Assembly (NCBI RefSeq): GCF_017355785.1
Contig: NZ_JAFEWE010000001.1
Coordinates: forward strand, 682,001-746,000
Source: Desertivirga arenae
Lineage (GTDB): Bacteria; Bacteroidota; Bacteroidia; Sphingobacteriales; Sphingobacteriaceae
Direction of reading: 5' to 3'
DNA length: 64,000 nucleotides
Made by a program: the position numbers and the translations under genes. Below the pieces are notes generated by a model. That model was not told the DNA's origin. It made no database searches and was given only the letters and a program-made list of their open reading frames with translations. Below are positions 25,448 through 64,000 of this stretch, piece by piece (within the stretch, counting starts at the first letter, position 1; each line of letters starts with the position of its first letter).

Positions 25448-27550
25448 TTATTTATCGAGAGAAGATATCCACTGCTCAGTAGTACCCCAGGCTTTGTTTG
25501 GGGTAGCAGAAGAGATAAACTCCAGGGTACCTCCTTCCATAAGCTCCTGGTGACTAATCCAGTTCCTATTGAGCTTCTGGCCGTTCAAATACACCGCGCT
25601 GACAAATGAATGATCGTTTGAGTAGTTTTTAATATTAAGCTTTATCGTCTTGCCTTGAGGAAGCGCAACTTTTAATGTTTTGAACAAGGGCAGGTGAATA
25701 TAATAAACAGGCTCACCCACGCAAGCTGGTGAAATACCCAAAGCAGCGAGAACAAACCAAGAGGACATTGCCCCTGCATCATCGTCCATTGTTCTAAGAT
25801 AAGCTTGAGCTTCATTTTTATAGATCCGCCCGATATAAGAGCCTATCCCCTTGCTATTATCATTGAAATAATTTTGCACCATAGTATCGACAGCGATCTT
25901 CCTCATGAGTTCCTGCGACTTCCATGGTTCCCTGGTGGCATGATATAAATAGGGTGCCTGAATGTCCGGCTCATTAGCATGATTATAGTAATCTCCCTCA
26001 AAAAAACCATCTAACTGTTTAATAAATTCATCCTCTCCACCTGCCAGCTCTTTCAATCCTTTTATATCGTATGGCACCAGCCAGCGGTACTGCCATACTG
26101 TTCCCTGATACATCTTTCTTGCCGACATAGCATCTAGATCACCCTTACCCAGGTCCTGAAAATCTTTTTTCCAGTAGTTCTTGTATTCAAGGGTCTTTAA
26201 GTAGTATTTCTTACTCAGCTCATCTTTCTTCAAGTCTTTGAGTAGCTCGGTAAATGCCCATAAATCATAAGAGGATTCAAGAGCTTTATCAGGACTGGAG
26301 AAATTAAGCTGATCCATTTCTGCTTTTATAGGATCAAGGATACCTTTGAGAGGCAGCGGGTAGCCCTTTCGCAGTGCATCCAGTAATACAACCACTGCAT
26401 GCTCAGTTCGTACGGTATTTGAGGGCTCATTCTGGGTAGCATAATCCTTCTTACCAAATCGATATAAATGGGCAATAGATTTAGCTATGTCCTGATACCT
26501 CTCCGAAAAAACAAATGACAATAAAGGTAGTTGAGTTTTGTAGTTATCCCAGATTGCCCAGCCATTATAAAAATCACTTTTTCCGTGTTGTAAAGAGCCA
26601 TCATTACCGCGAAATGTTCCGTCCTTTTCTGAAATCTTGTAAGGGGATTGAAGAGCGCGATAAAGAAGAGAATAAAAAAGTTTTGCACGTTCCTTATCCC
26701 CTTCCACCGTAATCCGGCTTAACTGGCGATTCCATTCGTTAGTACTTTCAGTTCTCATGCCGGAAAAAGTTTCGTACTTAATATCCTTTTTTGCGTAATC
26801 AGGACTTACAGATGAAAAGGCAATACGCATTTCCAGATCACTAAGGTTTTCCTCTAGTCTTATTAGATATTGATGATCTCCATGTTTCTCCCAAGTTACC
26901 GGCTGGCTAAACTCGAGGTAATAAAATAACTTGTACTTGCCAGCATTACAGGTAGTACCGGCCTCTACGAATCCACTGAGTGAATTCCCTTCAACTTCAT
27001 GTTCTTCTGCATAGAACCTGTTTGCCAGAACGCTGCTCAGATCCATTAACAAACCTTTCTTCCCCTTTGGAAACTGATACTTGTGAATACCTGATTTTTC
27101 CGAAACGCAAAAGGAAGCCTTTATGCCATTGGTAAAGCTAACACCGTAATAACCAGGGCTTCCTTCCTCCTTATATTTTATCAATTTCTGTTTTTCAGCA
27201 AAGCCACCGAGAAAAGGTTTCAATAAAATATTCCCACCGCTTCCCTGGCATCCTACCCCTTCGAAGCGATTATGAGTAAAGCCCTGAAACACCTTGGCCA
27301 GGTGCTCGTAACCAGTGTGAGTATTCGGATAAGTTACCGGACCAATACTTAGCATACTAAAAGGATATGAAGCAGCAGGTGAGAGTTGTCCGTGATCTCC
27401 TGATGTTCCCAAAAAAACATTTACTAAACCAGCTGCATTTTTACTACTCCCATCCTGCGCTTCAACCGAAAAAGGTACAATCAAAAAGAATAGTACATAT
27501 AGGCTACGAAGTACGCTTTCGTACGTTTGATCAATCTTCAAGGAAATCAA
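25448..27550 (-). CDS. GH92 family alpha-mannosidase-like enzyme, TTG start
   Basis: About 700 residues. N-terminal GH92 motifs: VNVFLGTSGDHGQLSPAASY, GYEHLAKVFQGFTHNRFEGV, GCQGSGGNILLKP. C-terminal motifs: NEPDIQAPYLYHATREPWKS and RTMDDDAGAMSSWFVLAALG, equivalent to the 'GNDDxGxMSAW' box with the acidic catalytic pair; the Gly-Asn of that box is changed to Thr-Met. GH92 enzymes are Ca-dependent exo-acting alpha-mannosidases. A signal peptide (SLYVLFFLIVPFSVEAQ) is present. No ATG exists between the in-frame stop at 27560-27562 and the signal. The likely start is the TTG at 27550, overlapping the preceding TGA as TTGA; another TTG lies at 27541. It is the last gene of the operon and is followed by a strong terminator. 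Confidence 0.88.
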   Translation of the reverse strand: MISLKIDQTYESVLRSLYVLFFLIVPFSVEAQDGSSKNAAGLVNVFLGTSGDHGQLSPAASYPFSMLSIGPVTYPNTHTGYEHLAKVFQGFTHNRFEGVGCQGSGGNILLKPFLGGFAEKQKLIKYKEEGSPGYYGVSFTNGIKASFCVSEKSGIHKYQFPKGKKGLLMDLSSVLANRFYAEEHEVEGNSLSGFVEAGTTCNAGKYKLFYYLEFSQPVTWEKHGDHQYLIRLEENLSDLEMRIAFSSVSPDYAKKDIKYETFSGMRTESTNEWNRQLSRITVEGDKERAKLFYSLLYRALQSPYKISEKDGTFRGNDGSLQHGKSDFYNGWAIWDNYKTQLPLLSFVFSERYQDIAKSIAHLYRFGKKDYATQNEPSNTVRTEHAVVVLLDALRKGYPLPLKGILDPIKAEMDQLNFSSPDKALESSYDLWAFTELLKDLKKDELSKKYYLKTLEYKNYWKKDFQDLGKGDLDAMSARKMYQGTVWQYRWLVPYDIKGLKELAGGEDEFIKQLDGFFEGDYYNHANEPDIQAPYLYHATREPWKSQELMRKIAVDTMVQNYFNDNSKGIGSYIGRIYKNEAQAYLRTMDDDAGAMSSWFVLAALGISPACVGEPVYYIHLPLFKTLKVALPQGKTIKLNIKNYSNDHSFVSAVYLNGQKLNRNWISHQELMEGGTLEFISSATPNKAWGTTEQWISSLDK

Positions 27551-37449: not shown

Positions 37450-38475
37450 TTACTTCCTGCCTGAACTGGAATCTCTTACCGTAAGTTCAGTATCAAGTAT
37501 AATCCGTTCATTCTGAGGATCTATTTCCTGCTGGTCCAATCTCTTGAGAAGCAAAGAAATCACTTGATCTGAGATCTTTTCAATCGGCTGTGCAATGGAA
37601 GTGATGGAGGGCGTGTATAGTTCAAACAACTCATTATCGTCGAATACAAGAACTCCTATATCTTCCGGAATCTTTAAGCCTAGTTCCTTTATTGCCCTTA
37701 ATCCACTTATTCCTAAATAATTAGTTGCGAAAACAATAGCATCCAAATCCCTCTTCCTTTTCAGAAAAGAAACAATTTGTCTTACAATATTTTCCGAAGA
37801 CTGGTTATAGGAGACCTCTTTAACGTGTTCCGTGAGCTTAAACTCTGCAGTAGCCTGCTCATATCCATGCAAGCGATCCTGCATTTGCGACTGCAAAGAA
37901 TCAAGCGTAACAAAGCCTATATTCTTATACCCTTCAAGAACGAGATGTTTCATTCCAGTATAAATACTTTGAACGCTATTAACTCCGACAAAATCAACAC
38001 CAGGAACATTTTCGAGAAAGCGGTCAAATAATACTACTGGCGATCCTGATTTTATCAGGGAAGTTACTTCCTCTTCAATCCCTTCTGGCGGAGCAATAAT
38101 GTAACCGTCTACGTGTCTCTCCCTAAATATACTTAAGATCTGTTTTGTCTTTTCCGTATCGTTCTCCGTACTACTATAGATTATTTTATAGCCATTCTTA
38201 TAGGCATTGTTTTCAATTAATCGGGCAATATTTGCGAAAAAGGGGTTGGCAATGCTTTCAACAAGTAGACCGATAATATTTGATTTTCCTGTACGCAGGC
38301 TTCTGGCTAAAACATTAGGCTTGTAACCTACCTCCTCTACAAATTTCAGCACTCGTTCTACCAATTCGTCACTTATCCTCTTCTCCTTTGCTCTTCCATT
38401 TAAAATAAAGGAGACAGTTGTGGTAGATATATTAAGATGCTTTGCAATGTCGATTATCGAGAGCTTTCTTTTCAC
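37450..38475 (-). CDS. LacI family transcriptional regulator
   Basis: A 341-residue protein. The N-terminal HTH (MKRKLSIIDIAKHLNISTTT, VSFILNGRAKEKRISDELVE) and hinge helix (YKPNVLARSLRTGKSN) are canonical. The periplasmic-binding-protein core follows (IIGLLVESIANPFFANIARL, VDGYIIAPPEGIEEE, DAIVFATNYLGISGLRAIKE, EDIGVLVFDDNELFELYTPS, the usual LacI effector region). It likely represses or activates the neighbouring ROK, transketolase-like and GH97 genes through the shared palindromic sites described separately. A related imperfect site sits in its own promoter at 38503-38515, suggesting autoregulation. Confidence 0.95.
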   Translation of the reverse strand: MKRKLSIIDIAKHLNISTTTVSFILNGRAKEKRISDELVERVLKFVEEVGYKPNVLARSLRTGKSNIIGLLVESIANPFFANIARLIENNAYKNGYKIIYSSTENDTEKTKQILSIFRERHVDGYIIAPPEGIEEEVTSLIKSGSPVVLFDRFLENVPGVDFVGVNSVQSIYTGMKHLVLEGYKNIGFVTLDSLQSQMQDRLHGYEQATAEFKLTEHVKEVSYNQSSENIVRQIVSFLKRKRDLDAIVFATNYLGISGLRAIKELGLKIPEDIGVLVFDDNELFELYTPSITSIAQPIEKISDQVISLLLKRLDQQEIDPQNERIILDTELTVRDSSSGRK

Positions 38476-38492: not shown

Positions 38493-38524
38493 CAAAGATA
38501 TATTAAACGATTTAGTTAGAGAAA
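38493..38524 (-). promoter_or_regulatory. Putative lacI promoter with imperfect operator
   Basis: On the minus strand a TATCTTTG box (plus 38493-38500) fits the -7 consensus, about 18 bases upstream of the ATG. Just upstream lies TTAAACGATTTAG (38503-38515), two or three mismatches from the CTAAAACGTTTTAG sites of the neighbouring promoters. The -33 box is poor (TTTC). The operator centre sits about 3 bases closer to -7 than in the other sites. Confidence 0.4.
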
Positions 38525-38618
38525 TGTAACCTTGCAGGGAATATTTTTAATAAATTATTTCTGAATTTTAAAACTAAACTAATTGGTAGATAAACGGGAA
38601 TAATCAATAATAACTTAC

Positions 38619-38654
38619 AAAAAAACAGGCAGACCAAGATCTGCGATCTGCCTG
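38619..38654 (-). terminator. Intrinsic terminator of the ROK kinase gene
   Basis: CAGGCAGA (38626-38633) pairs exactly with TCTGCCTG (38647-38654) around a 13-base loop. Seven A residues at 38619-38625 give a T7 tract after the stem on the minus strand. It lies 47 bp after the ROK stop at 38701 and isolates the ROK transcript from lacI. A 62-codon frame spanning this area is not a gene. Confidence 0.85.
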
Positions 38655-38679
38655 AACCAATCAAAATATAAGAGAGCTC

Positions 38680-38701
38680 GTTGTTTAAACGTTTTAGCAA
38701 C
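38680..38701. promoter_or_regulatory. LacI-type operator overlapping the ROK stop codon
   Basis: The 22 bases are near-palindromic: GTTG at one end, CAAC at the other, with TAAACGTTTTA in the middle. This is the most symmetric outer-arm match to the sites inside the ROK and GH97 promoters. Here no well-spaced -7 box is present, so it may be an auxiliary operator for looping rather than a promoter site. Confidence 0.5.
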
Positions 38702-39597
38702 TAGTGCTTATGAACAATTTCTACTTCTTCTGGATGATACCAAAGGCTAGACGCGCCTATTAAGGCTGCCTCTTCTCCCAATAGCGCTTTAAACACGGGT
38801 ATTTCTTTAAACTCATCACTTATTGATTCATGGAGACTACTCTCAAACAAATCATAAGCATTAGCAATATTCCCTCCCAGAATAATAGCCTCAGGATTCT
38901 CTGTTGCTATAAATTCATTTAAAAATTGTCCTAGATTCTGACCAAACTGCCTAAAGACTTCTGCAGCCAGGGGATCTGTTTCGGCAAGAGCAACAAGTAC
39001 TCTGACATTAGTAACAACATTTCCGCTGAGCTCCTTATATTGTTTCAAAAACCAGCGAGTAGACAGATAGTCTTCTGCGATACTTTCTTTAAAAGGAGAA
39101 TTCCAGCGGTCTGCATCAATAGCCATATTATCTGAATAAACCGAGGATCCTAATCCGGTACCCAATGTAAGCCCTATAATCCTTGAAAAACCCTTTCCTG
39201 CACCACCAAATGCTTCCCCCTGAAGAAAACAGGCGGCATCATTCATGAAACGAATCCTATCGGGACTTGTGCCAAGAGCTTTAGCAAGAAGTTCTTTTAT
39301 ATTCAAGCCATACAAAGAATCATACTTATCCTGATTCTTCACGAAGCAGATTCCTTTTTCGTAATCAAATGGCCCCGGCATGCCTATACCAATCTTAGTG
39401 ATATTAATTTTCAATGATTCAAAAGCACCTTTTATTGCTTCGGTCCATGCCTGAATAATTTCATCCACCTCATCATGCGAATTTACATTATTTCTGGTCC
39501 AGGTGTCCTGAAGCACTTTCCTGGTATCCAGATCCACTAGTGCTGCAGTAATGTGAGAGCCCCCAATATCAACGCCCATCACTATTGAATTACTCAT
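38701..39597 (-). CDS. ROK family sugar kinase-like protein
   Basis: A 298-residue protein. The phosphate-binding motif VMGVDIGGSHITAALVD opens the sequence; IGIGMPGPFDYEKGI, MNDAACFLQGEAFGG and IIGLTLGTGLGSSVY follow, then AIILGGNIANAYDLF. These are the ROK/hexokinase-fold ATP and sugar sites. The usual ROK zinc motif CxCGxxGCxE is absent; that region reads DADRWNSPFKESIAEDYLST, so it may belong to the zinc-free branch. It lacks a DNA-binding domain and is therefore a kinase (glucokinase-like) rather than a NagC-type repressor. A LacI-type operator lies inside its promoter. Confidence 0.9.
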   Translation of the reverse strand: MSNSIVMGVDIGGSHITAALVDLDTRKVLQDTWTRNNVNSHDEVDEIIQAWTEAIKGAFESLKINITKIGIGMPGPFDYEKGICFVKNQDKYDSLYGLNIKELLAKALGTSPDRIRFMNDAACFLQGEAFGGAGKGFSRIIGLTLGTGLGSSVYSDNMAIDADRWNSPFKESIAEDYLSTRWFLKQYKELSGNVVTNVRVLVALAETDPLAAEVFRQFGQNLGQFLNEFIATENPEAIILGGNIANAYDLFESSLHESISDEFKEIPVFKALLGEEAALIGASSLWYHPEEVEIVHKH

Positions 39598-39706
39598 ATG
39601 TAAAATTTATGTATAAAAATAAGTAGTAGCCCCCGTAATGATTTACTCTGCAAATTACATTTGGTATAACAATGGTTAGTCCTATAATTATACTCGGTGG
39701 TACTAA

Positions 39707-39737
39707 CAAAAATAACGTTATAAAACGTTTTAGCAAA
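39707..39737 (-). promoter_or_regulatory. ROK promoter with embedded LacI-type operator
   Basis: Read on the minus strand: TTTG (39737-39734), a 19-base spacer, then TATTTTTG (39714-39707), a full match to the Bacteroidota TTTG-N19-TAnnTTTG promoter. The spacer contains CTAAAACGTTTTAT, a palindrome centred at 39726/39727. A bound repressor would cover both boxes. The ROK start is 110 bp downstream. Confidence 0.65.
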
Positions 39738-39835
39738 TTAATTTTTAAAATAATGTTTCTTTAAAATTACTGCACCCTTCTTTTGATTCTATATGGAGGA
39801 TATGCATATTCCAGGGAAACAACTAACAGTACAAC

Positions 39836-40465
39836 CTAAATAATGATTTGCTCCCATGGTGTCTCAACAATCACTAATTGGGGCTTTTGAATTTCCCCAT
39901 CCTGAAAGGCCCGAATTACATTAGTTAAAAACCCTGAATCTTCTCCTCGGGTAGTACTTAAGTGCCACCCCCCGCATTTGAACTCTTCGGAATTACAAGA
40001 AGGAATATTGCCTTGAACTATTAATATAAGATTTAGTGGCAGGTTTGCAGGTAATGACCTTAACTCCTTCATTAAAAGGTCAGAAGCGGGAACAATAGCG
40101 AAGACAAGAGATCCTTCGCGGCATCTTAATTTTTCCTGCGCCAGATGTAAGCCTCTATTTAAAATATTTGAAGAATTATCCTTTACCACAACCACCCCTC
40201 CTTCTTCACAAATTAAACTTTCACCTTTTTTCGCTAACTCTGGTGGATTATTACCAGCTAAAATAGGCTCGAGAAAGGTTGAATACCTCCAGGAGACGAG
40301 AAGCAAATGGAATTGTTCCTCTTCTTGTTTGATAAATTCACTTAAATACAGAGGAATAAGAAAATTCATGCAGCAAATTGTTTTCCCCCGATATTCAAAG
40401 TTATTTGAGCGAAGTTCGCGGAATATAGTTCGTGCCTTATGTGTCAGTGTATCTTGCTTTATCAT
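39836..40465 (-). CDS. Protein resembling a degraded transketolase N-terminal domain
   Basis: 209 residues, no signal peptide. The order of segments matches the thiamine-diphosphate domain of transketolases: HKARTIFRELRSN (family 'KARxIRxxil'), MNFLIPLYLSEFI (family 'vdiLavLYf'), NSSNILNRGLHLAQEKLRCR (family 'GSLGqGLsxAxGmA'), PASDLLMKELRSLPANLPLN (family 'GDGElqEGxvwEA...ldN') and LILIVQGN...GWHLSTTR, then PQLVIVETPW (family 'P.viia.T'). The cofactor-binding GDG, the GH.G motifs and the N of the Mg site are gone. This is either a pseudo-enzyme with a new role or a decaying gene. The alignment was done by eye. A LacI-type operator-promoter lies just upstream, so it is part of that regulon. 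Confidence 0.5.
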   Translation of the reverse strand: MIKQDTLTHKARTIFRELRSNNFEYRGKTICCMNFLIPLYLSEFIKQEEEQFHLLLVSWRYSTFLEPILAGNNPPELAKKGESLICEEGGVVVVKDNSSNILNRGLHLAQEKLRCREGSLVFAIVPASDLLMKELRSLPANLPLNLILIVQGNIPSCNSEEFKCGGWHLSTTRGEDSGFLTNVIRAFQDGEIQKPQLVIVETPWEQIII

Positions 40466-40499
40466 ACGCTTTAAACAAATACAACAATCTTAGTAGCAG

Positions 40500-40530
40500 T
40501 AAATATACAAACTAAAAGGTTTTAGCAAAA
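40500..40530 (-). promoter_or_regulatory. Promoter of the transketolase-like gene with embedded operator
   Basis: Minus strand: TTTTG (40530-40526), an 18-base spacer containing CTAAAACCTTTTAG centred at 40518/40519, then TATATTTA (40507-40500), one base off TAnnTTTG. The start codon is 35 bases downstream of the -7 box. The layout is nearly identical to the promoter at 40708-40738. Confidence 0.6.
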
Positions 40531-40583
40531 GGCTTTATCAAAATTATTTCTCTCAATCTTTATTACTAACATTGAAATTAACC

Positions 40584-40610
40584 AAAAAAAAAGAGCACTG
40601 GGAGTGCTCT
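40584..40610 (-). terminator. Strong intrinsic terminator
   Basis: AGAGCACT (40592-40599) pairs perfectly with AGTGCTCT (40603-40610) around a GGG loop, and on the minus strand the stem leads into a T8-T9 tract (A run at 40584-40592). It lies 187 bp after the GH97 stop and about 92 bp after the predicted start point of the orphan promoter at 40708-40738. Confidence 0.9.
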
Positions 40611-40702
40611 GTAACCAATTTATAAATCTGACACGACTGATGATGCCTGTTGCAATACATCTTTGCCAAATTAGAAGAGTGTGATTATCCGTTGCGAGGA
40701 TA
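40584..40702 (-). ncRNA. Candidate small RNA of about 118 nt
   Basis: The orphan promoter (-7 box TATATTTG at 40715-40708) predicts a start near 40702, and the intrinsic terminator ends the transcript near 40584. The interval codes only for an implausible 35-codon frame that runs through the terminator. The product could be a regulated sRNA or the remnant of a deleted gene's transcription unit. No homology was checked. Confidence 0.35.
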
Positions 40703-40707
40703 CAGTG

Positions 40708-40738
40708 CAAATATAACAAGTAAAACCTTTTAGCAAAA
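40708..40738 (-). promoter_or_regulatory. Orphan promoter with embedded LacI-type operator
   Basis: Minus strand: TTTTG (40738-40734), an 18-base spacer with CTAAAAGGTTTTAC centred at 40726/40727, then TATATTTG (40715-40708), a perfect -7 match. About 40 bases here are a diverged direct copy of 40500-40540, 208 bp away. No gene follows before the terminator at 40610. Confidence 0.6.
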
Positions 40739-40796
40739 TACTTTGTTAAAATATTCTTGGCAGCCGCATTCCCTGCATCTCTTGTAAATAGGCCTT

Positions 40797-42746
40797 CTAA
40801 CGTGTTATTTGAAGTCTTGCTACCCAACCGCCTCCGGTGGTCATACTTATTTTATGTTTCGTATTGCGGTTTACCTCAAGACTTTCCATTTTAAAGTCCT
40901 TCGCATTCCTGTCTGCATTTATTCCGTCTTTCCAAACGTCCATCTTATACTTTGCATTCCCCAGGAAAGACAGGTCGAGTTCTAAGTTACGTGCGGTCCA
41001 GTCGGTCATAGCTCCGATATACCAGTCGCCATTCTTTGCCTGTCGGGCAACTGCCACGTAATCACCCACTTTGGCCTGTAAGGGAATTGTTTTCACCCAT
41101 TCAACTGGCACGGCGGATAAGAATTTCATACAATCGGGTTCTTTATAGTAATGCGTTGGAAGGTCGCAGAGCATCTGCAGCGGACTTTCAAAAACTACAT
41201 ACATCGCCATCTGATTACAACGGGTGCCGAGGGTCATGGGCTCCCCTCCTACTCCGGCGAAAGCATCTTTTTGTACATTTAACATTCCCCCCGGCGTAAA
41301 GTCCATTGGACCGGCAACCATACGGGTAAATGGTAAAGTGGTGGTATGTTCCGGATCAATGGCACCTGTAAACTTACTTATTTCATTGCCGAATACGCCT
41401 TCGGAGGTTAATACGTTGGGATAAGTCCTGATCCATCCGGTAGGTTTATAAGCCCCATGAAAGTCAACCATCATTTTCCTTGCAGCAGCAGCCCTGGATA
41501 CCTTTTCGTAATAATTCACCATATCCTGATCGTCACGCTGCATAAAGTCGACCTTAATACCCTTGATTCCCCATTTGGCAAATTGATCGAGGGCCACATC
41601 CAATTGCTTATCCAAAACCAGCCAGCTTGTCCACAAGATAAGCTCAACGTTCCTGCTCTTTGCATACCTTGCCAGTTCTTCGACATTAATATCCGGAGAT
41701 TGCTTTAGCAGATCACGGGTATCGCACCAACCCTCATCCAGCAAAACGTATTCGATCTTATTCTTCGAAGCAAAATCTATATAATATTTATAGGTGTCGT
41801 TATTGATCCCCGCCCGAAAGTCAACCCCGTAGATATTGTTATAATGCCACCAATCCCATTGAACTTTCCCTGGCTTCACCCAAGAATAATCACCAGCAGA
41901 AGGTTTTGCCAGTTGATAAACTAATTGGTTGCTTAATAAACCCTTATCTTCCTTCTCGATCATCACAATGCGCCAGGGAAAAGATTGAGGCCCGTTAATC
42001 TTAGCAATAAAATCCTCCCTCGAATTAACTTTTTCATCGCGATCACTGGTTACAGCTTTCTCTTTCGGATAATGTGGAAAGACTGCCCGGAGAGCTCCGT
42101 TTCCTTTACCCCGGAGCCACATACCCGCATAATTAAATAATCCTGATTCAGTCAGCAGCAGTTTTGTACCCTTTACCTCGAAGAGTGCGGGTAAGCTGGC
42201 CAGCTTCTTAGCATCAATACTGTCTATCCTGTAATTCTTATAGGTGCGTTCATTGTGAGAATAAAAATCGTCTTCCTGCGGATACCAGGATCTCCCTGTT
42301 CTATCTAAAGAAAATTCAGCTTTCTCGTCCACAACCTTGTAAGAACCGTTTCTGTTGCTGATCCAACGCCAGGCAATTCCATTGTTATATACCCTCCATT
42401 CGAGCGACAAGCTATTGCTGAAGTCGACGTGTAATTGATTGTAATTATCCTGAATAGAATTACTTTTCTGGTAGATAACAGGTTGAAGGACTGCGTTCCT
42501 TGAGCTGGTTTGACTTTTGCTGACCTTCCAGCTCTTTGCCTTGTCAAGATCTGTCTTAAACGCTATTTCCGACTTCCCAATTAATTCCCCGGATTCAGAC
42601 TGCACAGAATAAAAAATGGATTCCCCAACAGAAACATCGAGTTGAATAGCCTTATCAGGAGAGGAGAGTGAGAACCTCTTTTGGGCAAATGTGACTGCAG
42701 TTCCCAACAACAGCCAACTTAATAAGAGTGTGTGTTTAAAAAGCAT
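40797..42746 (-). CDS. GH97 family alpha-glycosidase, probably retaining type
   Basis: About 649 residues from MLFKHTLLLSWLLLGTAVTF; an in-frame Met at 42791 precedes it by 15 residues without signal-peptide character. The N-terminal beta-supersandwich has FSLSSPDKAIQLDVSV and NGIAWRWISNRNGSYKVV. The barrel has WDWWHYNNIYGVDFRAGIN, YVLLDEGWCD, KGIKVDFMQRDDQDMVNYYE, MVDFHGAYKPTGWIRTYPNV and TSEGVFGNEISKF. In GH97, retaining alpha-galactosidases use the Asp of VDFM and have Gly in DFHGA, where inverting SusB-type enzymes carry Glu; this sequence fits the retaining type. Its promoter holds a LacI-type operator (42846-42876), and a terminator lies at 40584-40610. Confidence 0.88.
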   Translation of the reverse strand: MLFKHTLLLSWLLLGTAVTFAQKRFSLSSPDKAIQLDVSVGESIFYSVQSESGELIGKSEIAFKTDLDKAKSWKVSKSQTSSRNAVLQPVIYQKSNSIQDNYNQLHVDFSNSLSLEWRVYNNGIAWRWISNRNGSYKVVDEKAEFSLDRTGRSWYPQEDDFYSHNERTYKNYRIDSIDAKKLASLPALFEVKGTKLLLTESGLFNYAGMWLRGKGNGALRAVFPHYPKEKAVTSDRDEKVNSREDFIAKINGPQSFPWRIVMIEKEDKGLLSNQLVYQLAKPSAGDYSWVKPGKVQWDWWHYNNIYGVDFRAGINNDTYKYYIDFASKNKIEYVLLDEGWCDTRDLLKQSPDINVEELARYAKSRNVELILWTSWLVLDKQLDVALDQFAKWGIKGIKVDFMQRDDQDMVNYYEKVSRAAAARKMMVDFHGAYKPTGWIRTYPNVLTSEGVFGNEISKFTGAIDPEHTTTLPFTRMVAGPMDFTPGGMLNVQKDAFAGVGGEPMTLGTRCNQMAMYVVFESPLQMLCDLPTHYYKEPDCMKFLSAVPVEWVKTIPLQAKVGDYVAVARQAKNGDWYIGAMTDWTARNLELDLSFLGNAKYKMDVWKDGINADRNAKDFKMESLEVNRNTKHKISMTTGGGWVARLQITR

Positions 42747-42845
42747 AGTATTCCAGGTTTTCGAACGCAGCCTTCCTTCACTACAATGCATGCATTGATC
42801 CCGGAGCTTCGTTCAGTTGGTATTGGTAGTTCAATTATGTAATAT

Positions 42846-42876
42846 CAAAGGTAGGAACTAAAATGATTTAGCAAAA
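42846..42876 (-). promoter_or_regulatory. GH97 promoter with embedded LacI-type operator
   Basis: Minus strand: TTTTG (42876-42872), an 18-base spacer containing CTAAATCATTTTAG centred at 42864/42865, then TACCTTTG (42853-42846), a full -7 match. The leader to the ATG at 42746 is about 95 nt. Operator centre to -7 distance (11 bases) equals that of the promoters at 40500 and 40708. Confidence 0.65.
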
Positions 42877-42978: not shown

Positions 42979-46986
<4,008 letters not shown>

Positions 46987-62135: not shown

Positions 62136-63476
62136 TTACTGGGCTCCTTCGAGCTTAGATTGTGTTTCAGAAGAGTTGGCGTTATCCTTAAAGCTTGCCC
62201 CGGAAATCTTAAGCACTACCGGATTGGGCCATTTATTATCGGTATAAAAGCGCTGACCGTTCACTGCGCTTACTACCAAACCCAGATCTCCCGTTTGTAT
62301 TTTTATAGAGGCATCGAAGTTTTGCCGGTACTCCACCAAATTACTTTCATAGCCAAGGATGCTGACGGAAGTTAAAGCGGATGCTTTCAGAGAAGTGAGA
62401 ATTATTTCTTTGCGTTCCCCGTACTTCCAGCTGGTGCCTGGAATAAAAGCATAGATAAATCTTCCATCTTCCGAGCTGGTATACCAGATATTTCCTTCCC
62501 TGGTCCTTAACGCGGCCCGGACATTGTGGATCGCTTCTGTGTTTGCGAAGTTCCATAATGCAATTTCACGCAGGCGGGCCTCCTCCTCCTCGCGTAATGA
62601 ACCATCCGGCTTCGGCCCGATATTTAGCAGCAGATTACCTCCCTTTGCCCGCGTTTCTATCAAGGTACTGATCAACTCTGTTCCCGTCTTGAATTGATCA
62701 TTTGTCGGTTTATACTGCCAGTCAGTACCCATAGTCAGGCAGGTCTCCCACGGAGAGGATATCACTGCATCGGGCACTTTCTGCTCGGGAGTCACCATGT
62801 GTCCCCTGGTAACTACTATATCGGGCTGCAATTTCCAGCAATACTCCTTTAAGCCTTCTGCCGGCCCATCGAGGAAGACGATGTCTATCTTACCATAATT
62901 AGTTAAAAGCTCCTTTAACTGGGATTTATCATATTCCATCAATGCCGGGTTCTGTAATGGAAAGTGGCTGGGGTGCTGCAAGCGCCCAATCGGTGAGCCC
63001 GTTTTATTCAGGAAGTAAAAATCTTCAGGAGAATAATATAGGCCGATGGCTATCCCCTGTTTCCTGAATGCAGCTATGATTTCCTTCGTAACATCCCTTT
63101 GGAAAGGAGTATTTGTGATGCTGAATGAGCTCGTTCCGGTTTTGAACATACAAAAGCCAGAATGATGTTTGGCAGTAAACACTACGTATTTCATTCCTGC
63201 AAGGCGGGCAAGTATCGCCCACTCCTCAGGGTTGAACCTGGAAGGATTGAATGTATGAGGCAATTCATTAAAGAACTTGTTACGGTAGGCTTTAGAGGAA
63301 CCAGCCAGGGAGTGACTGATCACAGCCCCAAGTTGCGAATCGAGGCTCCAATGGATGAACATTCCAAAGCCGAGACCGCTAAACCACTTTTCCCGCTCCG
63401 GTTTATTCGCCGCTTGCTGCGAATAGGCAAATGGAGAAATTAGAAAATAACTAATCAGGGCAATAAACCATCTCAT
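62136..63476 (-). CDS. GH29 alpha-L-fucosidase, second copy
   Basis: About 446 residues from MRWFIALISYFLISPFAYSQ; the Met at 63518 would overlap the preceding stop at 63502 and lacks signal character. Motifs: KWFSGLGFGMFIHWSLDSQL, YVVFTAKHHSGFCMFKTGTS, IGLYYSPEDFYFLNKTGSP, GKIDIVFLDGPAEGLKEYCW with nucleophilic Asp in FLDG, DIVVTRGHMVTPEQ and NLLLNIGPKPDGSLREEEEA. It differs from the 50544-51947 enzyme, notably in the IDWNHP-like loop. A C-terminal beta domain follows. It is in the same operon as the SGNH-associated gene (25 bp upstream). Confidence 0.92.
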   Translation of the reverse strand: MRWFIALISYFLISPFAYSQQAANKPEREKWFSGLGFGMFIHWSLDSQLGAVISHSLAGSSKAYRNKFFNELPHTFNPSRFNPEEWAILARLAGMKYVVFTAKHHSGFCMFKTGTSSFSITNTPFQRDVTKEIIAAFRKQGIAIGLYYSPEDFYFLNKTGSPIGRLQHPSHFPLQNPALMEYDKSQLKELLTNYGKIDIVFLDGPAEGLKEYCWKLQPDIVVTRGHMVTPEQKVPDAVISSPWETCLTMGTDWQYKPTNDQFKTGTELISTLIETRAKGGNLLLNIGPKPDGSLREEEEARLREIALWNFANTEAIHNVRAALRTREGNIWYTSSEDGRFIYAFIPGTSWKYGERKEIILTSLKASALTSVSILGYESNLVEYRQNFDASIKIQTGDLGLVVSAVNGQRFYTDNKWPNPVVLKISGASFKDNANSSETQSKLEGAQ

Positions 63477-63501
63477 ACTGTAGCCTTTTCGGATGTTCAA
63501 C

Positions 63502-64000
63502 TTAATTCTGCAAATCACCGATCAGCATGATATAGCCTGCATAACAGGCATTCTCCTGGTATCTCGATTCCTTATCCATTGTCTGGTTGTTACGTTGGCT
63601 TAATATTTCTTTCTTGTCGAGCTGCCTGCCGGAAACCTCCAAACGGACAGTGTGTAAACCTTTACTCAGTCCCTGCTTAAGGAAATACTGCGGCCGGTAA
63701 TACGTAGAATAGCTGTCGAAACGAGGCACGAGCTCTTTGTCACCCCCATCAACACTTAATTCATACTGTCCGCAGCCAGGACCTACTACATCATACAATC
63801 CAGCTACCTGCCCTTTGAACCGGAATGACAGGCTTGCTCCCTTTTCGCTGGATTTGATAAATTCTGTAAATGGCTTTTTAAATATTCGTTGTAATTCAGG
63901 ATCATCCGTAGTTACTTTTTCCCAGTTTCCTGTTTTGACTGCCTTCTCAACCGGGATAAGCTTTGCTGCCTCCCAATTATCCTTTATGAAGGGTTTTACA
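63502..64000 (-). CDS. C-terminal sugar-binding-like domain of a gene cut by the window edge
   Basis: The minus frame is open from the right edge down to the stop at 63502, about 166 codons; the start is outside. The visible part begins VKPFIKDNWEAAKLIPVEKA and contains FIKSSEKGASLSFRFKGQVA, VVGPGCGQYELSVDGGDKEL, YYRPQYFLKQGLSKGLHTVR and LEVSGRQLDKKEILSQRN. This is a beta-sandwich, galactose-binding-like domain often found at the end of SGNH/GDSL esterases, but the catalytic part cannot be seen. It heads the operon in this window. Confidence 0.6.
   Translation of the reverse strand, partial: VKPFIKDNWEAAKLIPVEKAVKTGNWEKVTTDDPELQRIFKKPFTEFIKSSEKGASLSFRFKGQVAGLYDVVGPGCGQYELSVDGGDKELVPRFDSYSTYYRPQYFLKQGLSKGLHTVRLEVSGRQLDKKEILSQRNNQTMDKESRYQENACYAGYIMLIGDLQN

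Follow-up and report, generated by a model that had tools for sequence, protein, structure and literature searches.

Are the six near-palindromes that lie around a lacI gene of Desertivirga arenae the operators of the LacI-family protein encoded beside them, and which pathway would they govern? The window analysed here is a 64,000-nucleotide (64-kb) stretch of this genome. The six copies, which resemble CTAAAACGTTTTAG, fall within 4.4 kb of it (38502-42871), among or before the genes of a GH97 enzyme, an orphan protein, a ROK kinase and lacI, all of which are on the minus strand in the 38.4-42.9 kb region. Four of the six sites are nested in the spacer between the -33 and -7 elements of Bacteroidota-type promoters. 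We consider it quite probable that the adjacent LacI-family repressor, perhaps along with a close paralogue, uses these sites as its operators and, through them and others elsewhere in the genome, governs the use of mannose and alpha-mannosides (of the glycoprotein or fungal-mannan type). Clustering of the sites, their position in promoters and their occurrence in other genomes are the strongest arguments for this.

According to excerpts of a published account, Sigma-ABfr promoters carry TAnnTTTG at -7 and TTTG near -33 (PMC7366714). Three of the four window promoters contain both elements exactly and the fourth is one base off, which predicts from the sequence that they belong to this type; here, an operator-like palindrome fills the spacer. 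The original prediction had described three promoters with a full -7 box and an upstream TTTG or TTTTG. A strict search of the whole window on both strands, for TTTG, a spacer of 17-20 bases and an exact TAnnTTTG, recovered exactly these three (minus-strand starts at 39737, 40737 and 42875), each with an operator. The fourth promoter was also as described, with TATATTTA as its imperfect -7 box, and operators were located in all four spacers. The distance from operator centre to -7 box, predicted to be 11 bases in three cases and 12 in one, was measured as 11 for the operators starting at 40512, 40720 and 42858 and as 12 for that at 39720. The sites are as follows, with bit scores from the profile introduced below.

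39707-39737, minus strand: promoter of the ROK gene; TTTG, 19-base spacer, TATTTTTG; operator at 39720-39733; 19.0 bits.
40500-40530, minus strand: promoter of the orphan gene; TTTTG, 18-base spacer, TATATTTA (one base off); operator at 40512-40525; 13.9 bits.
40708-40738, minus strand: second, upstream promoter of the orphan gene; TTTTG, 18-base spacer, TATATTTG; operator at 40720-40733, which is 208 bases upstream of the operator at 40512-40525; 11.0 bits.
42846-42876, minus strand: promoter of the GH97 gene; TTTTG, 18-base spacer, TACCTTTG; operator at 42858-42871; 19.8 bits.
38502-38515, no strand assigned: weak operator-like site with 3 mismatches in the lacI promoter; an exact -7 box, TATCTTTG, occupies 38493-38500.
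38684-38697, no strand assigned: operator-like site beyond the ROK stop, ~210 bases before lacI; 12.7 bits.

The weaker, fifth site predicted in the lacI promoter is present, but with its 3 mismatches it was not reported by the relatives-built profile R1 in a scan of the window. A sixth site had been placed across the ROK stop; the site exists, but the overlap does not, since its core ends 3 bases short of the stop codon (38701-38703). It is stronger than the site in the lacI promoter, and a site directly after the ROK stop is also found at the homologue in the same-genus Desertivirga xinjiangensis (G002; L078:9041 and L168). Autoregulation is common, though not universal, in the LacI family, and the site after the ROK stop may serve as an auxiliary site for lacI. 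Between ROK and lacI (38590-38660) we read by eye a hairpin followed by a T run, which suggests that lacI is transcribed separately; the 38684 site lies before this hairpin.

At up to 2 mismatches, five matches were found in the 4503 bases of the region, whereas 2000 shuffles averaged 0.04 and never exceeded 2. Because the pattern was read off the same region, a fairer control is the best of all palindromes in shuffled sequence. When all 16,384 14-bp palindromes were scanned in the region, CTAAAACGTTTTAG ranked first with 5 matches, whereas the best palindrome of each of 25 shuffles had 2 to 4. For the same reason, independent support was sought in other genomes.

Intergenic sequences around 36 homologous lacI loci (39.6 kb) were scanned for palindromes without bias, and CTAAAACGTTTTAG came joint first with CTAAATCGATTTAG, each occurring in 9 loci at no more than one mismatch, compared to a mean of 0.03 loci for palindromes of equal composition (n=2688). 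The unbiased scans yield centres of the ...ACGT... and the ...TCGA... kind. We then gathered sites within one mismatch of a four-member consensus, omitting three in-frame sites, and obtained 52 intergenic sites, which come from 27 of the 36 loci and have the consensus TTTGCTAAAWCRWTTTA. Their centre has C in 49 and G in 41 of the 52, partly by construction as the sites were picked near the consensus; an even palindrome with a central CG is the form looked for in LacI-family operators. The sites were oriented by their TTTG flank, so the conservation of TTTG is partly by construction as well. Thirteen of the 52 have an exact TAnnTTTG, in every case at an offset of 11, 12 or 13 bases; the rest of the scanned range (7-25) yielded no exact box. 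This indicates that the promoter nesting itself is conserved for a quarter of the sites.

The association also holds between genomes. Of the 39 genomes that have a close LacI homologue, 31 contain the exact pattern TTGCTAAAWCGWTTTA, compared to 26 of the 211 others (Fisher 7e-17, uncorrected for relatedness); it occurs in 17 of 62 genomes with a more distant homologue and in 9 of 149 without a homologue at E up to 1e-95. Over the 251 genomes there are 98 matches, compared to 24 for the reversed pattern. Relatives of this LacI at E up to 1e-95 occur in at least 102 of these 251 genomes of one family, the D. arenae genome included, when at most the 8 best candidates per genome were scored. Within the genus, D. 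xinjiangensis has an operator before an MFS (major facilitator superfamily)-ROK run beside a 74% identical homologue, and genome G001 lacks both the pattern and, at E up to 1e-60, a homologue. A search of named genomes gave 39 loci, of which 26 were examined and 10 have sites; outside the family, these accompany LacI genes of 50-58% identity in Pontibacter, Dyadobacter, Hymenobacter and a Ferruginibacter metagenome-assembled genome (MAG). Absence of conservation had been set beforehand as an outcome that would speak against the original prediction, and it did not occur overall. In the comparison of orthologous promoters, homologous lacI genes of the family, and of some genomes in other families, had operators nearby, but conservation is incomplete.

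To see which genes the sites precede, we used profile R1, which was built from 48 relatives' sites (four of the 52 were dropped for poor orientation) and contains none from the D. arenae genome. Among the best 150 of 7343 candidates scored in this genome, the top match is the window GH97 operator at 42858-42871 and the third is the window ROK site. Second and fifth are two sites of contig 7, which precede the genes of a GH125 alpha-mannosidase and a FucP-like MFS permease, respectively; fourth, on contig 10 and in the opposite orientation, is a site located 55 bases ahead of the phosphomannose isomerase gene (manA). Lower matches include other window sites and sites in the GH92/GH130/SusD cluster that surrounds a LacI paralogue of contig 41; further ones lie near GH92 genes of contigs 2 and 42. 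The whole-genome matrix scan proposed earlier, here with a matrix from relatives only, picks out both window sites and coherent targets elsewhere. Matches inside a GH31 frame, a 1159-residue frame and a 1076-residue frame are probably due to chance; the GH31 start may be called too early.

The relatives present a similar set of genes. Operators precede ROK, MFS, GH125, GH92, GH38-like and SusC genes, and in one genome (G104) an operator is located 28 bases before manA. The GH38-like enzyme has an operator in three genomes, GH92 and GH130 are linked to relatives' loci, and one locus (L109) has the order LacI, ROK, GH125, GH76, MFS, SusC. In three related loci GH2, GH125 and lacI adjoin, one of them also with GH97 and an alpha-L-fucosidase. 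With predicted operators in front of genes for mannosidases, transport, a kinase and phosphomannose isomerase, the sugars of kinase and permease being presumed, the regulon extends beyond the window and is likely to be one of mannose and alpha-mannoside use.

The spacer geometry leads us to infer promoter occlusion by a LacI dimer. In the absence of sugar, the dimer would sit on CTAAAWCRWTTTAG between the TTTG at -33 and the TAnnTTTG at -7, with the operator's 5' half abutting TTTG, and would block RNA polymerase. The repressor would come off in response to one of the pathway's sugars, mannose or a mannoside being the probable candidates. In the window this would free the ROK kinase, GH97 and orphan genes; elsewhere it would free the genes of the GH125 alpha-mannosidase, the MFS sugar permease and phosphomannose isomerase, and possibly those of GH92 enzymes. 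Mannose liberated by the mannosidases would then enter through the permease, receive a phosphate from the ROK kinase and be converted towards fructose 6-phosphate by phosphomannose isomerase. The window galactosidases may trim galactose from mannose-rich glycans. Such an arrangement would give a likely operator and pathway to this group of LacI proteins and supply a set of candidate repressible promoters for Bacteroidota.

The regulator itself is the following gene.

37450-38475, minus strand: lacI, LacI/GalR-family regulator of 341 residues, with a helix-turn-helix (residues 7-54) and a sugar-binding domain.

Its protein scores 39.9 bits with the Pfam LacI model (PF00356; cut-off 27) and 98.1 bits with Peripla_BP_3 (PF13377), which places it in the LacI family, and its nearest solved structures are CcpA and PurR. 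The published accounts below are cited from excerpts. In Bacteroides thetaiotaomicron, the GntR-family ManR (BT2103) is predicted to control how mannose is taken up and converted to fructose 6-phosphate, as well as alpha-mannosidase/SusCD genes (Ravcheev 2013, PMC3878776). The phylum is the same and the pathway alike, but the window protein belongs to another family; no GntR-family domain was found in the Pfam scan, which returned only the LacI and sugar-binding models. A survey of the LacI family lists five orthologous groups of mannose or mannoside regulators, for example ManR, and covers the Bacteroides phylum through one taxonomic group (Ravcheev 2014, PMC4052901). As described there, these groups resemble the window system in family, in the even palindrome with central CG and in mannoside control. 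The LacI-family KdgR, UxaR, UxuR and UxmR of Bacteroides, which share family and phylum with the window LacI, are predicted to control a different pathway, uronate catabolism (PMC3878776). Apparently, then, a LacI mannoside regulon in a branch outside the coverage of the excerpted accounts (PMC4052901, PMC3878776) does by another protein family what ManR does in Bacteroides. We found no LacI mannoside regulon of Sphingobacteriaceae in the literature searched, which did not include RegPrecise itself.

Among the 14 LacI genes of the D. arenae genome, only the window gene and the contig-41 paralogue, which is 54% identical to it, have sites nearby at 2 mismatches (loci of ~3.1 kb). The cluster around the paralogue (GH92, GH130, SusD, GH2) has 7 matches, 3 of which read GCTAAATCGATTT, and one lies ~60 bases before the paralogue gene. 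We compared the sites with the residue aligned to LacI residue 17, which we take to be a recognition-helix residue. This residue is K in some proteins and T, P, I or V in others (LacI proteins of L078-L117 and L148-L166), and T in the window protein. Near K proteins, A prevails over T in the second half-site by 24 to 7, while the reverse is seen for non-K proteins (12 to 23; p=0.0006, uncorrected); in the first half-site the counts are 23/8 and 18/17 (p=0.08, not significant). These counts took both strands, with some sites counted twice and no correction for the tree. K proteins tend to adjoin TCGA-type sites and other proteins ACGT-type sites. As 28 of 32 K proteins fall in one clade and no tree correction was applied, we treat the link between residue and operator as a lead only. 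One possible, though rather doubtful, scenario is that Sphingobacteriaceae LacI paralogues split an ancestral operator in two through this one residue, K on one side and T, P, I or V on the other, with a corresponding difference of T or A beside the central CG, giving two nearly insulated mannoside regulons per cell, with the operator's 5' half fused to the -33 element. The paralogue pair offers a natural test case for how LacI recognition helices choose DNA.

Several observations weigh against a mannoside regulon under the local LacI. Nine of the 36 relatives' loci have no intergenic site at up to one mismatch, 24 of 55 lacI stretches have no site, and 16 of the 26 examined named loci are siteless (two Fulvivirga, five flavobacterial, one Lentimicrobium, one Pedobacter, five Mucilaginibacter and two unclassified MAGs). 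The exact -7 box is missing from 39 of the 52 relatives' sites, and one-off boxes show no preference for offsets 11-13 (only 3 of 19). The window sites at 40512, 40720 and 42858 have no central CG, and the sites discussed have modest E-values (0.006 to 4.5) in the scan of the whole genome. In the D. arenae genome the plain 14-base pattern matches at 35 places at up to 2 mismatches, some of which were inspected, and its reversed form at 80; matches with 2 mismatches that fall within reading frames were discounted as probably fortuitous. A flanked version gives 53 matches versus 32 for its control. The bare pattern is thus common genome-wide and does not by itself define a regulon. The manA operator is patchy: of 56 genomes matched, 30 loci were fetched and 23 anchored (7 unanchored ones were dropped; G104 was found separately), and only one of the 23 upstream regions, that of D. 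arenae, has a site within one mismatch, two have one with 2 mismatches and the rest have 3 or more. The general conservation of this operator that had been expected is not seen in these regions. Could the sites, then, be chance or promoter-derived similarity? The spacers are AT-rich, TTTG belongs to the promoter, and at up to 3 mismatches the window has 8 matches, six in 38502-42871 and two elsewhere, where chance gives 4.26 and 5 of 100 shuffles reached 8. Yet the palindrome ranks at the top in two data sets and is associated with the LacI homologue at the genome level, and this conservation speaks strongly against chance, which we regard as highly improbable.

The identity of the sugar and of the binding protein can be weighed in the same way. 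GH97 and GH2 of the window are galactosidases by family, GH97 being nearest to retaining alpha-galactosidases and GH2 above the beta-galactosidase cut-off; the MFS permease exceeds the NCBIfam cut-off for the L-fucose permease FucP (325.7 vs 280.4 bits), which makes mannose import by it a guess from context; and in a related locus (L081) an operator precedes an alpha-L-fucosidase gene. These points would suit a response to a galactoside or fucoside instead of mannose. However, most other operator-linked or adjacent genes are mannose-related (GH125, GH92, GH76, GH130, GH38-like, phosphomannose isomerase), and GH2 has no operator of its own, so we judge such a response quite unlikely. It is also conceivable that the contig-41 paralogue is the main protein on these sites, or that both bind equally, and that the local LacI is not the chief regulator. 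The near-identical sites of the contig-41 cluster, including the one before the paralogue gene, would fit, and R1, whose training set contained both kinds of site, is unable to tell them apart. We nevertheless find this unlikely, as D. xinjiangensis has its operator before the MFS-ROK run beside the 74% homologue and the preference in the second half-site seems to go with residue 17, which is T in the window protein. Control of mannoside use by the local LacI remains the reading we prefer.

The genes next to lacI in the window are listed below.

38701-39597, minus strand: ROK-family sugar kinase, presumably a mannose kinase; Pfam ROK, 104 bits.
39836-40465, minus strand: orphan gene of 209 residues without a family match.
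40797-42791, minus strand: GH97 enzyme (Pfam GH97), closest to retaining alpha-galactosidases.
42979-46620, minus strand: GH2 beta-galactosidase, adjoining GH97; NCBIfam Bga2A above its cut-off.

The ROK kinase matched no NCBIfam kinase model above its cut-off and showed weak matches to N-acetylmannosamine kinase, glucokinase and glucomannokinase structures. GH97 scores 707.7 bits with the NCBIfam retaining alpha-galactosidase model, under the cut-off of 800, and its best PDB matches are 3a24 and 5e1q. Neither the pattern scan nor the profile scan of the window found an operator before GH2, which is at most a possible member of the regulon, and neither reported one for the GH92 mannosidase and the alpha-L-fucosidase of the window (25448-27550 and 62136-63518, respectively).

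Among the lower R1 matches is an operator-like site on contig 38 (L012; G000:C38:125111) before an extracytoplasmic function (ECF) sigma factor gene that is followed by a FecR-type gene; it might link the regulon to an outer-membrane uptake system. On contig 41, three separate pieces (G000:C41:150531-151262; L241-L243) resemble the GH38-like alpha-mannosidase that is full-length and operator-linked in D. xinjiangensis, and judging by their sequence they look like a decayed remnant. The orphan gene had no Pfam or NCBIfam match at E 0.001, and among 151 genomes searched it was matched only in its own and in none of the 150 other family genomes. It is preceded by two tandem operator-bearing promoters, and may be a recent arrival or a fast-changing gene.

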